Virus record (IMG/VR): IMGVR_UViG_3300029258_002161
Location: 1 to 36,993 of that record
Reading direction: 5' to 3' (one strand)
Length of the DNA stretch: 36,993 bases
Origin: a virus
The translations under genes were made by a program, and so were the position numbers. Positions 5,356-14,665 of the stretch are shown here, in pieces. Positions within the stretch are counted from its first letter, which is position 1. Each line of letters begins with the position of its first letter. The notes below the pieces were generated by a model. The model did not search any database. It saw only the letters and a program-made list of their open reading frames with translations, and was not told where the DNA came from.

Positions 5356-6443
5356 CGGCGCTGGGCGAGGCAGTGGGGCGGTATCTCAAAGTGCGGGCGG
5401 CGGGGGTGAGCCGGACGACTATGCGGACTGACCGAAGTCATTTGGAGCAGTTTGTGGAGTGGCAGGGGGCGGAGGTGGATGTGGCCGCGATTGCGCTGGA
5501 TGATGTGGCGGAGTATGTGACGGAGCAGCGGGAGCGAGGGTTGTCGCCGCACACGATACAGAGGCAGCACGCGGCGTTGAGTGCGTTGTGGACGTGGTTC
5601 ACGACGCCGGAGATTGGGCTGGCGGATGTGAATGTGGTGAAGGCGGTCCCGACGCCGGATCTGCCGAAGCGGCTGGTGGAGACGCTGACGCGGGGGCAGT
5701 TCGCCGAGTTGTTGCGGGCCGCAGGCGAGACCGGGAACCCGTTGCGCGACCGGGCGATTCTCGTATTTTTGCTCGATACGGCGGCGAGGGCGAGTGAGTT
5801 GTGCGGGGTGATGGTGGGGGACGTGGATTTCGATACGGGGCGGTGCCGGGTGATCGGGAAGCGTGACAAGCAGCGCCAGGTGTATGTGCAGGTGCGGTCG
5901 CTGATGGCGCTACAATTGTACTTGGACAAAGAGAGGCCGCAAAATTTCGCCCCGAATCTCTTCTTGACGAAGAAGGGGCGAGCGATGACGCGGTACACGT
6001 TGACGGGGATCCTGACGCGCTTGGAGGAGCGGACGGGCATCCACTGCAATCCTCATTTATTCCGGCATACGTCGGCGATTGAACACTTGCGCGGTGGAAT
6101 GAGTGTGGTAGAATTGCAAAAGATGCTGGGCCACGAAGACCTCGATACAACACGCAAGTATCTCACCGCACTTAAAGATGAAGACGTAGAAGTACAGGCG
6201 ATGCGCTCCTCGCCGGTGGAGCATTGGGTGGGCGGCGGGCCAGGGCTGATCGGAAAGACGCCCGAGGCCGACGCCGTGACCTGGTGTGCGGAGCACAGCG
6301 CGGCGGTGACGTTTTCGCGGGTGAATGGGAGCGGGCGGGTGACGGTGTGCGTGGGGGGATTCCTGACGGAGGAAGGGGAATCGTTGGCCAAGGCCGTGGA
6401 TGGTGCACGGCGGAAGATCGAGAGATTTATGGAGGCAAGATGA
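5352..6443 (+). CDS. Tyrosine recombinase 1 with C-terminal extension
   Basis: A 363-residue XerC/D-like site-specific recombinase. Residues 1-100 form a SAM-like core-binding domain. The catalytic set is complete: Arg146 (ARASELCG), Lys170 (IGKRDKQR), His235-x-x-Arg238 (HLFRHT), His261 (LGHEDLDTT) and Tyr270 as nucleophile. It is a clear paralogue of the leftward integrase at 31898-32791; catalytic Arg and Lys have the same residue numbers and the region TTRKYLTAL is identical. After the catalytic domain it has an extra ~75 residues (about 290-363) absent from that paralogue, with a beta-rich VTFSRVNGSGRVTVCVGG segment. Having no att-like DNA next to it, it may resolve or invert phage DNA rather than integrate it. 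Confidence 0.93.
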   Translation: MTALGEAVGRYLKVRAAGVSRTTMRTDRSHLEQFVEWQGAEVDVAAIALDDVAEYVTEQRERGLSPHTIQRQHAALSALWTWFTTPEIGLADVNVVKAVPTPDLPKRLVETLTRGQFAELLRAAGETGNPLRDRAILVFLLDTAARASELCGVMVGDVDFDTGRCRVIGKRDKQRQVYVQVRSLMALQLYLDKERPQNFAPNLFLTKKGRAMTRYTLTGILTRLEERTGIHCNPHLFRHTSAIEHLRGGMSVVELQKMLGHEDLDTTRKYLTALKDEDVEVQAMRSSPVEHWVGGGPGLIGKTPEADAVTWCAEHSAAVTFSRVNGSGRVTVCVGGFLTEEGESLAKAVDGARRKIERFMEAR

Positions 6444-6820: not shown

Positions 6821-7113
6821 TGTACCTTGTTAACGTGATGATGGTCGATGTTAGGCAAGTTGAGATTGCTGGTGTGTCGGATTCGGAGGTTGGCGAGGTT
6901 GCGTTGCGGGAAGCGCAGCGCCTATATGGGAACTATGACTCAGTGGACGTTTTCAGTATTGAGCATCGACCTGATAGTAAGGCAGCCCCCACCCCGTCGA
7001 GGAACGAGGCAGGGGCCGAGCGAAGAGGGGCTAGACTCGATGTTGAGGACGGATTTCGATGTACGGGGGGCCGTATTCGTAGAGGGCGTGGGCGGCGATG
7101 GCTATTGCGCTGA
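6820..7113 (+). CDS. Hypothetical protein whose 3' end runs into cassette copy 1
   Basis: The ATG shares its A with the preceding TGA, and GGAGG is just upstream. The first ~54 residues look like a natural small phage protein ending around FSIEHRPDS (about base 6978). From about base 6981 the frame is encoded by the inserted cassette and reads Ala/Arg/Gly-rich sequence (APTPSRNEAGAE and onward) until a chance stop. The second cassette at 14192 also extends the gene it follows and yields the matching APTPSGNGAGA tail. I infer that the native C-terminus was lost. Confidence 0.55.
   Translation: MYLVNVMMVDVRQVEIAGVSDSEVGEVALREAQRLYGNYDSVDVFSIEHRPDSKAAPTPSRNEAGAERRGARLDVEDGFRCTGGRIRRGRGRRWLLR
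6985..7016. terminator. GC-rich hairpin ending cassette copy 1
   Basis: An inverted repeat with a 13-bp stem and a 6-nt loop lies just past the stop of the leftward cassette gene. Three positions are G-U wobbles where copy 2 is fully paired, so pairing is conserved despite base changes. There is no T-run on either side, so it may stabilise RNA 3' ends or only weakly terminate. Confidence 0.5.
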
Positions 7114-7276
7114 AGGCGGCGGCCAGCGTGTCGGCCCGCGTGTCGGCCCGCTGGATGTCCGTCTCGCGGTCCTGGGAGGCGACGCGCCAGGTGTCGAGGA
7201 CTTCGGCCAGCAGGGTGCAGTCGTCCACCGTGAGGCGCACATCTGCCAGGTAGGGGAGGATAGTCTTGAGTTGCAT
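7031..7276 (-). CDS. Cassette protein, copy 1 (81 aa, unknown function)
   Basis: Translation starts at the ATG at 7276, 7 nt after AGGAG. The N-terminal ~46 residues are strongly conserved with copy 2 (MQLK, PYLADVRLTVDDCTLLAEVL, DIQRADT), as is AAHALYEYG near the end. Divergence in between includes an in-frame 12-bp duplication in copy 1 giving RADTRADT. The protein is probably all-helical, soluble and acidic, with no signal peptide or membrane segment, which argues against a TisB/Hok-like membrane toxin. I do not recognise the family. Conservation of the protein while DNA drifts indicates selection. It has its own promoter and an RNA leader predicted to gate its ribosome-binding site. Confidence 0.75.
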   Translation of the reverse strand: MQLKTILPYLADVRLTVDDCTLLAEVLDTWRVASQDRETDIQRADTRADTLAAAFSAIAIAAHALYEYGPPYIEIRPQHRV

Positions 7277-7432
7277 TTAGAGGCTCCTTTATTCGATAGC
7301 GCAAGCCCGCAGCAGTTTGCGCTTCCGGGAGCCTCTAACTCGACGGGGCGTTAGCCGCTGCGGGCTTACAATCATATTTTATCAGAATGTGTGGGAAACG
7401 CAACACCCAAAATGTCAACGAGTTAGAGGCTC
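7277..7432 (-). ncRNA. 156-nt structured leader RNA of cassette copy 1 (candidate RNA switch)
   Basis: From the predicted +1 (G at 7432), element A, GAGCCTCTAACTCG (7432 to 7419), is the exact 5' end. Anti-element A' (7342 to 7329) is its perfect 14-nt complement. The ribosome-binding region A'', GGAGCCTCTAA (7287 to 7277), repeats A, so A' can pair with either the 5' end or the translation start but not both. A second helix, GCCCGCAGCGG (7365 to 7355) with 7315 to 7305, encloses A'. A competing GCGCAA/TTGCGC hairpin overlaps its 3' strand. In copy 2 all three A-type elements changed together. Bases are given as DNA. Confidence 0.75.
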
Positions 7433-7438
7433 AAGATC

Positions 7439-7482
7439 AGTATACCACAACGCGGGGTGGATTTCAATAGAACAGGCGTTCT
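7439..7482 (-). promoter_or_regulatory. Leftward sigma70 promoter with SOS-like operator (cassette copy 1)
   Basis: On the minus strand TTGAAA (7467 to 7462), a 17-bp spacer and TATACT (7444 to 7439) place +1 near 7432. Immediately upstream of the -35 is a perfect dyad AGAAC-GCCT-GTTCT (7482 to 7469). GAAC-N4-GTTC is the LexA (DinR) box type known from Gram-positive bacteria. Copy 2 keeps the same promoter and both arms while the four central bases differ. Confidence 0.7.
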
Positions 7483-8435: not shown

Positions 8436-8635
8436 TGGAGCCAGTGACTCTCAAGGACATCATCGACCTGGCGAACACGCTCGGCGTGACGGCGTTGGCG
8501 CTGTGGGCGTTGATGCTGTTTTATCGCGGCGATATTCTCTCGCGGAAGGTATACGAGGAGCTGACCAAGCTGTTGATTCCCGACCTGGCCGAGCAGATCA
8601 GCGAGCGGATCGCCGAGAGGATGAAGCAGAAATGA
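8435..8635 (+). CDS. Small single-pass membrane protein, second holin-like gene
   Basis: The ATG overlaps the previous stop (TAATG). The 66 residues contain one membrane helix (about residues 12-31, ANTLGVTALALWALMLFYRG) and a charged amphipathic C-terminal helix. Size and place between a holin-like lipoprotein and a peptidase suggest a holin or antiholin. The family is not certain. Confidence 0.6.
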   Translation: MEPVTLKDIIDLANTLGVTALALWALMLFYRGDILSRKVYEELTKLLIPDLAEQISERIAERMKQK

Positions 8636-14060: not shown

Positions 14061-14241
14061 GGAGCGAAAGGTCCCTTGCGAGGTTTATTCTCGCGTCGTG
14101 GGGTATATGAGGCCGACCAGCCAATGGTCCGAGGCCAAGCGGCTGGAATTTGAGGAGCGGGCCACGTTTGACCGGTCGGTGAGGCGTGATGAGGCCCCTA
14201 CCCCGTCGGGGAACGGGGCAGGGGCCGGAGAGGGAGGCTAG
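14053..14241 (+). CDS. NrdD C-terminal-like mini-protein, tail extended by cassette copy 2
   Basis: ATG 14053 overlaps the portal end by 8 bases. Residues 9-40 contain CEVYSRVVGYMRP, a Trp, and EFEERATFD. This resembles the C-terminal region of anaerobic ribonucleotide reductase NrdD, where CxxxxRVxGYxRP-W-GK-EF-R motifs surround the glycyl radical and zinc site. Here it stands alone in 62 residues, with no catalytic domain. It lies between portal and MuF genes. From about residue 48 the frame runs into the cassette (APTPSGNGAGAGEGG) and stops at GGCTAG, so the natural end is probably lost. The resemblance is from memory of the motif. Confidence 0.6.
   Translation: MTEERKVPCEVYSRVVGYMRPTSQWSEAKRLEFEERATFDRSVRRDEAPTPSGNGAGAGEGG
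14193..14226. terminator. GC-rich hairpin ending cassette copy 2
   Basis: A 14-bp stem (GGCCCCTACCCCGT with its complement, allowing for one mismatched or wobble position) closes a short loop. It is the counterpart of 6985-7016 and is better paired. No T-run follows on either strand, so a terminator or RNA-stabilising role is tentative. Confidence 0.5.
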
Positions 14242-14459
14242 AAGCTGAGATGGGTGGACGCGGGACCGTATTCGTAGAGGGCGTGGGCGGCGACGGCGAG
14301 GGCGCGAAAGGCGGCGCCCAGCGTGTCGGCGCGTTGGATGTCCATCTCGCGGGCGGGGGAGGCGGCTGGCCAGTCGTCGAGGACCTCGGCCAGGAGGGTG
14401 CAGTCGTCCACCGTGAGGCGCACGTCTGCCAGGTAGGGGCGGATGTGTTTCAGTTGCAT
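14238..14459 (-). CDS. Cassette protein, copy 2 (73 aa, unknown function)
   Basis: I choose ATG 14459 because it matches the copy 1 start exactly in distance from AGGAG and from the promoter. An in-frame ATG at 14492 would lie in the leader. Roughly four-fifths of the first 46 residues are identical to copy 1, and LYEYG is shared near the end. It lacks the RADT duplication of copy 1. It is small, soluble and helical. The stop overlaps the plus-strand stop region of the NrdD-like gene, so the two genes converge. Confidence 0.75.
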   Translation of the reverse strand: MQLKHIRPYLADVRLTVDDCTLLAEVLDDWPAASPAREMDIQRADTLGAAFRALAVAAHALYEYGPASTHLSF

Positions 14460-14615
14460 CGTGAGCTCCTTTACTCGATAGCACAAGCCCACAGCGGTCT
14501 GCGCTTCCGGGAGCTCACGACTCGACGGGGCGTTTTCCGCTGCGGGCCTGTGACCACAATTTTATCAGATTGTGTGAGAAACGCAACGCCCAGGATGCTG
14601 GCGAGTCGTGAGCTC
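14460..14615 (-). ncRNA. 156-nt structured leader RNA of cassette copy 2
   Basis: The layout and length are identical to copy 1. Element A is GAGCTCACGACTCG at the predicted 5' end (14615 to 14602), A' its full complement (14524 to 14511), and A'' GGAGCTCACG (14469 to 14460) abuts the ATG. The enclosing helix pairs 14547-14537 with 14497-14487, with one G-U. Compared with copy 1, CCTCTAA became CTCACGA in A and A'' and A' changed to match. A short CACAAT/ATTGTG hairpin lies between A and A'. Confidence 0.75.
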
Positions 14616-14621
14616 AACGCC

Positions 14622-14665
14622 AGTATACCACAACGCGGGGCGGATTTCAATAGAACGGATGTTCT
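14622..14665 (-). promoter_or_regulatory. Leftward promoter with SOS-like operator (cassette copy 2)
   Basis: TTGAAA (14650 to 14645), a 17-bp spacer and TATACT (14627 to 14622) are followed by +1 near 14615. The dyad AGAAC-ATCC-GTTCT (14665 to 14652) abuts the -35, exactly as in copy 1. The arms are invariant and the centre is variable, as expected for a dimeric repressor site. Confidence 0.7.

Follow-up and report, generated by a model that had tools for sequence, protein, structure and literature searches.

Two small genes of a phage are preceded by leader RNAs that are, with high confidence, selected switches. An internal anti-element, A', can pair either with element A at the predicted 5' end of the transcript or with the ribosome-binding site, A'', and the two pairings exclude each other. 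The best overall explanation, which we hold with somewhat better than even confidence, is a bistable leader RNA that controls translation of the downstream gene. Its fold may be set by the transcription start, either at the upstream promoter P1 or at a promoter-like element P2 inside the leader.

The window, i.e. the whole stretch of DNA analysed, is a virus record of 36,993 bases with genes for terminase, head, tail and a repressor-like protein. Three different tyrosine recombinases are encoded in this single 37-kb phage record (5352-6443, 31898-32791 and 35490-36422). Both cassettes are small, lie on the minus strand and are flanked by plus-strand genes. Their features are as follows, with the supporting evidence in brackets.

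7432-7277, minus strand: leader of cassette 1, 156 nt
7031-7276, minus strand: gene of cassette 1, an orphan of 81 aa (no family match; proteins 27-32% identical between phage groups)
7419-7432, minus strand: element A, predicted 5' end of the P1 transcript, GAG-CCTCTAA-CTCG, GAGCCTCTAACTCG (sequence, covariation)
7328-7342, minus strand: anti-element A', CGAGTTAGAGGCTCC (sequence, covariation)
7277-7287, minus strand: element A'', ribosome-binding site GGAG plus key, GGAGCCTCTAA (immediately 5' of the ATG at 7276)
7355-7370, minus strand: 5' strand of helix P (covariation)
7300-7315, minus strand: 3' strand of helix P (covariation)
7319-7351, minus strand: stem-loop inside P whose 7-nt loop displays the A' key; sequence CGC-C-CCG-UC-GAG-N7-CUC-C-CGG-AA-GCG (stems invariant, -7.4 to -9.5 kcal/mol)
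7402-7408, minus strand: 5' strand of helix Q, GGGTGTT, which pairs with 7346-7352 and lengthens the A:A' hairpin (7/7 or 6/7 pairs in all leaders)
7294-7327, minus strand: alternative hairpin R, 7317-7327 with 7294-7304 (8-9 pairs in all leaders)
7439-7467, minus strand: promoter P1, TTGAAA-17-TATACT with extended -10, TGGTATACT, predicted +1 at or adjoining A (promoter scan)
7470-7481, plus strand: LexA-like palindrome GAAC-N4-GTTC just upstream of the P1 -35 (pattern search)
7376-7403, minus strand: P2, promoter-like element inside the leader, TTGCGT-16-TAAAAT, predicted +1 at about 7369, the base of helix P (conservation, matrix)
14460-14615, minus strand: leader of cassette 2, also 156 nt
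14238-14459, minus strand: gene of cassette 2, an orphan of 73 aa (74-79% identity to the cassette 1 gene)
14602-14615, 14510-14524 and 14459-14469, minus strand: A, A' and A'' of cassette 2 (sequence, covariation)
14537-14552 and 14482-14497, minus strand: strands of helix P of cassette 2 (covariation)
14622-14650, minus strand: promoter P1 of cassette 2, TTGAAA-17-TATACT with extended -10 (promoter scan, sigma70 matrix)
14653-14664: LexA-like palindrome of cassette 2 (pattern search)
14559-14586, minus strand: P2 of cassette 2, predicted +1 near 14551 (conservation)

All three elements proposed for cassette 1 by a sequence-only reading, which gave no strand, are present on the minus strand, and the pairings claimed there, 14 bp for A:A' and 11 bp for A':A'', are perfect. 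The same reading described a second cassette with a different key, changed consistently in all three elements, behind a leader of again 156 nt; this is what we see, with A'' of cassette 2 taking in the first base of the ATG. Neither window key recurs elsewhere in the window at up to 1 mismatch.

Relatives were sought with a DNA pattern made from two conserved stretches around A', which was scanned over the viral collection and matched 6 places in 4 viral contigs. The near-identical record UViG_3300017987_000488 holds both cassettes. Four further distinct leaders occur in three records: L008 and L010 in UViG_3300037826_000095, L009 in UViG_3300037504_000613 and L011 in UViG_3300037796_000048. 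These make up the second phage group, while the leaders of the window are referred to as W1 and W2. The second group is kin to the window phage, with 65-68% identity in the terminase and 68 and 72% in two other head-region proteins, and its cassettes occupy other genome sites, beside the terminase gene and beside the tape-measure gene. Leader identity across the two groups is 67-69%, compared to 49-52% for the ORF and 25-35% for the upstream DNA, which makes the leader RNA the best-conserved part of the cassette. Scanning the viral collection with further patterns, whose cores were looser or different, returned only chance matches beyond the known loci, and a covariance model search of the four records gave no further copies. 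The phages and plasmids collections contained no relative, and a profile search with the cassette protein recovered only the near-identical record. An archaeal protein match (L005) was rejected, as it lies in the interior of an unrelated 289-aa reading frame without a leader. The terminase gene at L010:2009-4249 (minus strand) in UViG_3300037826_000095 carries an apparent intein or homing-endonuclease-like insertion, ending ...VGRNFIPTHN before SELVSKRFPAWF, which the window terminase and the L009 and L011 matches do not show.

The six leaders contain five keys, CCTCTAA and CTCACGA in the window and ATACCAA (twice, shared by L008 and L009), CTAGCAA and CAACCAA in the second group, each matched at three sites. 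In the second group the leader measures 155 nt and A:A' comprises only 13 bp, because position 14 is an A opposite a C; in L010 and L011 the last pair of A'' is G-U. An ordered triple of a 9-nt word, its reverse complement and the word again was present at least once in every real leader and in none of 1000 dinucleotide shuffles per leader. One more exact copy of the L008 key (GAGATACCAA) was noted in UViG_3300037826_000095 (L010:881-890, minus strand) within a coding frame; with about 0.07 copies expected in 35 kb it is probably due to chance.

Covariation was scored for the A:A' and A':A'' structures, each counted together with helix P. Six of the 14 A:A' pairs are changed on both sides over the six leaders and five keys, with no broken pair inside the key; the second group has the only broken one, the outermost (columns 14 and 92). 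For A':A'', 6/11 pairs have both partners changed and no cell is unpaired; helix P (columns 64-79 with 119-134) has 3 pairs changed on both sides and 7 on one side. The covariation scores of 0.378 and 0.440 exceed the shuffled means of 0.184 and 0.226, were reached by 0/500 shuffles and were lost when the partners were slid by 1-3 columns; the independent events behind them are few, because there are just two groups, mutually related, and L008 and L009 share a key. At the level of sequence comparison A:A', A':A'' and P each prove to be a selected pairing. Independent variation of A, A' and A'', which would speak against a switch, was looked for in the six leaders and not found. The claim of a selected, mutually exclusive RNA switch is thus strongly supported by the three-way covariation in five keys together with the independently covarying helix P. 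Few signals in a sequence alone point as cleanly to a dynamic RNA as coupled triple covariation of this kind, and a naturally variable key within it is unusual. Helix P, the internal promoter-like element, the LexA-like box at P1 and the better conservation of the leader than of the protein go beyond the earlier reading.

Around the three elements the leader can adopt two competing conserved folds, because one set of invariant bases is used by Q, by R and by the stem inside P. Hairpin R is compatible with A:A' and incompatible with P. In the ON fold, A at the 5' end would pair with A' (13-14 bp, lengthened by helix Q) and leave the ribosome-binding site A'' free. Without A, helix P would form and display A' in its apical loop, from where A' would pair with A'' across the Shine-Dalgarno sequence as far as the start codon, giving the OFF fold.

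The computed energies bear on the direction of the switch. A:A' exceeds A':A'' in duplex stability by 6-7 kcal/mol in every leader, and in prefix folding A:A' appears first, as soon as A' is complete. Forced-helix ensembles of the full-length leaders place A:A' within 0.5 kcal/mol of the best fold in 5/6 cases; for full-length W2 with pseudoknots barred, P is favoured over A:A' by 3.6 kcal/mol (-72.3 vs -68.7). When columns 1-14 were deleted, A':A'' became the best structure or came within 0.3 kcal/mol of the best in L008, L009, L010 and L011, even without pseudoknots. In the equally shortened W1 and W2, P is best, and the programs used give no score to the pseudoknot that the closed form requires. 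The direction predicted in the sequence-only reading, full-length open and A-less closed, therefore stands as far as these folding energies go, with the exception of full-length W2, which prefers P when pseudoknots are barred. From the models we consider it probable that A-bearing transcripts are open and A-less transcripts closed.

The first reading had further placed A at the predicted 5' end of the transcript; the predicted P1 start lies 0-3 nt from A in all copies. With a sigma70 matrix whose values were entered from general knowledge, P1 is the top-ranked site on its strand of the window. The two groups share no conserved P1 sequence upstream of the -10. The sequence GAAC-N4-GTTC is the known LexA box of Gram-positive bacteria. 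It occurs at 2 sites in the whole window, one before each cassette, against a mean of 0.52 in shuffles, so the count is weak and the placement is the evidence. Because both sites adjoin a P1 -35, P1 of the window phage is probably inducible by DNA damage, if the LexA of the host recognises this consensus. The box is absent upstream of the second-group cassettes. At the corresponding position these have an ACC(A/G/C)AA(T/C)TGGT palindrome upstream of P1 (L008 ~8540-8560, L010 ~1540-1560, L011 ~5975-5995), which is possibly the operator of another repressor.

A second start is suggested inside the leader. In the linker between A and P, the consensus TTGCGT-16-TA(A/C)AAT is kept in 6/6 leaders, and the sigma70 matrix ranks it among the top 0.02-0.11% of positions of each record; the predicted start falls on a purine at the base of P in all six. 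No conserved RNA fold was found in this linker. Since P2 is conserved and high-scoring, with its predicted start at the base of P and a linker without a conserved fold, we propose that P1 would make an A-bearing, translatable mRNA and P2 an A-less, silent RNA. The -35 of P2 is poor (3/6 match), P2 was not among the promoters listed by the promoter scan, and the purpose of a silent RNA from P2 is not obvious. Start-site choice via P2 is accordingly our preferred trigger in a tentative sense only, held at less than even confidence. If P1 and P2 are indeed the alternatives that set the switch, translation would be tied in a simple manner to the promoter that fired.

The sequence-only reading had suggested processing, a protein or a small RNA as the trigger. 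Removal of A by a nuclease would have the same effect as a start at P2, and the conserved internal stretch could be a processing or protein site instead of a promoter. The primary transcript would then come from P1 alone, and translation would be shut over time by loss of at least the first 14 nt or by binding of a protein to the 5' end. The predicted closure of 5'-deleted RNA agrees with such a course, as does the linker 7376-7403, which is conserved yet unstructured, and processing-dependent leaders are common among type I toxin mRNAs (PMC11295053). In the known cases, however, processing opens the ribosome site, whereas here it would close it, and the linker shows -35/-10 hexamer spacing in 6/6 leaders. 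We judge this course unlikely, at roughly one chance in four.

Start-site choice, our preferred trigger, also has to be set against sensing of a ligand or protein by the invariant core around A' (CGCCCCGUCGAG...CUCCCGGAAGCGC), which would bind in one of the folds and use A, A' and A'' as expression platform. A pseudoknotted layout and sequestration of the ribosome-binding site are typical of riboswitches, and the core nucleotides do not differ from group to group, in contrast to the covarying P and key. The invariance may, however, stem from the alternative stems (Q, R and the stem-loop) that share these bases. The regulated gene is an orphan and not a metabolic one. Rfam searches of the leader region and the window yielded nothing at the gathering score and, at E up to 5, no riboswitch but only a chance SNORD44 match outside the leader. 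This possibility appears doubtful to us.

Of about the same doubtful standing is an action of the key in trans, which is compatible with a bistable leader set by its start site and not an exclusive alternative to it. The A and A' loops, or pieces of the RNA, would act on other copies in the manner of incompatibility RNAs, and a fast-evolving key would block cross-reaction between paralogues. A and A' both read GAG-N7-CUC, and GAG/CUC is invariant also on the side without a counterpart in A'', which A':A'' pairing alone leaves unexplained; it would fit small hairpins with 7-nt loops, as expected for kissing. In both groups the paralogues of a single phage differ in key (W1/W2 and L008/L010). 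The keys appear to diverge faster than the rest of the leader: L008 and L011 differ at 7/21 key positions compared to 1/134 others (p = 2e-6), W1 and W2 at 15/21 compared to 22/135 (p = 6e-7). With the three coupled sites counted once, the excess shrinks to p = 0.006 for L008/L011 and 0.003 for W1/W2, and to p = 0.05-0.07 for the two remaining second-group pairs; within groups the range is p = 0.003-0.065. The key pattern fits selection for non-crossing keys and hence trans action, but orthologues (L010/L011) also differ in key, and a separate antisense or sRNA gene was not found. In its strictest form, which we likewise rate as improbable, a diversified 7-nt key would be private, each cassette copy answering only to RNA with the same key, such as 5' ends or leader fragments in trans. 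Phages would then possess a matched-code RNA regulator, an RNA identity code like that of plasmid incompatibility but acting on translation. Complementary 7-nt kissing loops whose sequence varies in a matched way are found in the ColE1-type RNAI/RNAII pair, two antisense RNAs that control replication; the phage loops resemble them in size and matched variation and differ in that both partners lie within one mRNA.

Very improbable is a role of A/A' and A'/A'' purely as inverted repeats in the DNA, for a recombinase or as an operator, with RNA pairing as a by-product: the window does encode three tyrosine recombinases and the segment from A to A' contains a promoter-like element, but helix P covaries though its strands lie in two different segments, A'' sits exactly on the ribosome site and P1 starts at A. 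A DNA inversion switch was rejected given the same orientation in 6/6 leaders, and transcription attenuation given that no U-run follows either hairpin. An open frame runs through the W1 and W2 leaders by eye; a leader peptide with translational attenuation was rejected because a single-base indel shifts the frame in the second group. An HDV-like ribozyme, considered because of the nested pseudoknot layout, was dismissed since its first helix would measure 13-14 bp instead of 7 and no such model matched.

The product of the cassette gene is a weakly conserved protein of 73-82 aa with no match in Pfam, PHROGs or PADLOC, nor in PDB by profile. Structure prediction gave helical models of poor quality (mean pLDDT 56 and 67), and a fold search with the low-confidence model gave nothing below E 1.9. 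No conserved membrane segment was recognised by eye on the alignment. As a guess, the product could be a stress-induced phage effector such as an antirepressor. Directly 3' of each ORF in the window lie strong G+C-rich inverted repeats without a T-run (6973-7020 and 14190-14225, minus strand), which are probably transcript ends; the second phage group has other hairpins at the position just after the ORF.

Among known systems, the leader would work like the bistable leaders of the hok/tisB type, in which the 5' region decides whether the ribosome site opens. It shares with type I toxin-antitoxin loci the alternative folds that hide or open this site, as seen by comparison and computation, and the cassette proteins do not look like short hydrophobic toxins of the membrane type. 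A scan for sigma70-like sites found no opposite-strand promoter pointing into the window leaders. Since a membrane toxin is lacking, an antisense RNA was not found and the predicted sign is opposite, the cassette is not classed as a bistable toxin mRNA.

The likeness to hok/Sok lies in mutually exclusive, complementary mRNA elements inferred from coupled covariation and in a 5' end that steers the fold at the ribosome site; the coupled nucleotide covariations of the hok family were described in 1997 by Gultyaev, Franch and Gerdes (cited in PMC6733600). Unlike in hok, the phage elements all lie within 156 nt, with no 3' fold-back element, antisense RNA (none found) or small membrane toxin, and A is predicted to open the ribosome site, not to close it.

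A different comparison is offered by the leader of tisB, an SOS-induced gene. With tisB, zorO and timP the phage leader has in common a structured leader with a pseudoknot, and with tisB and zorO the dependence of translation on the presence of the 5' region (PMC11295053). In tisB and zorO it is the processed RNA that is active, the full-length one being silent (PMC11295053), whereas the reverse is predicted for the phage leader, for which no antitoxin RNA was found and whose protein is larger. Finally, in aapA3/IsoA3 of Helicobacter, as in the phage leader, the Shine-Dalgarno sequence is contested by several sequences, one after another, as transcription proceeds (PMC6733600). There, successive anti-SD hairpins and a 3' long-distance pair are used, while in the phage leader a single anti-SD would be caught by a copy of the SD region that lies upstream.
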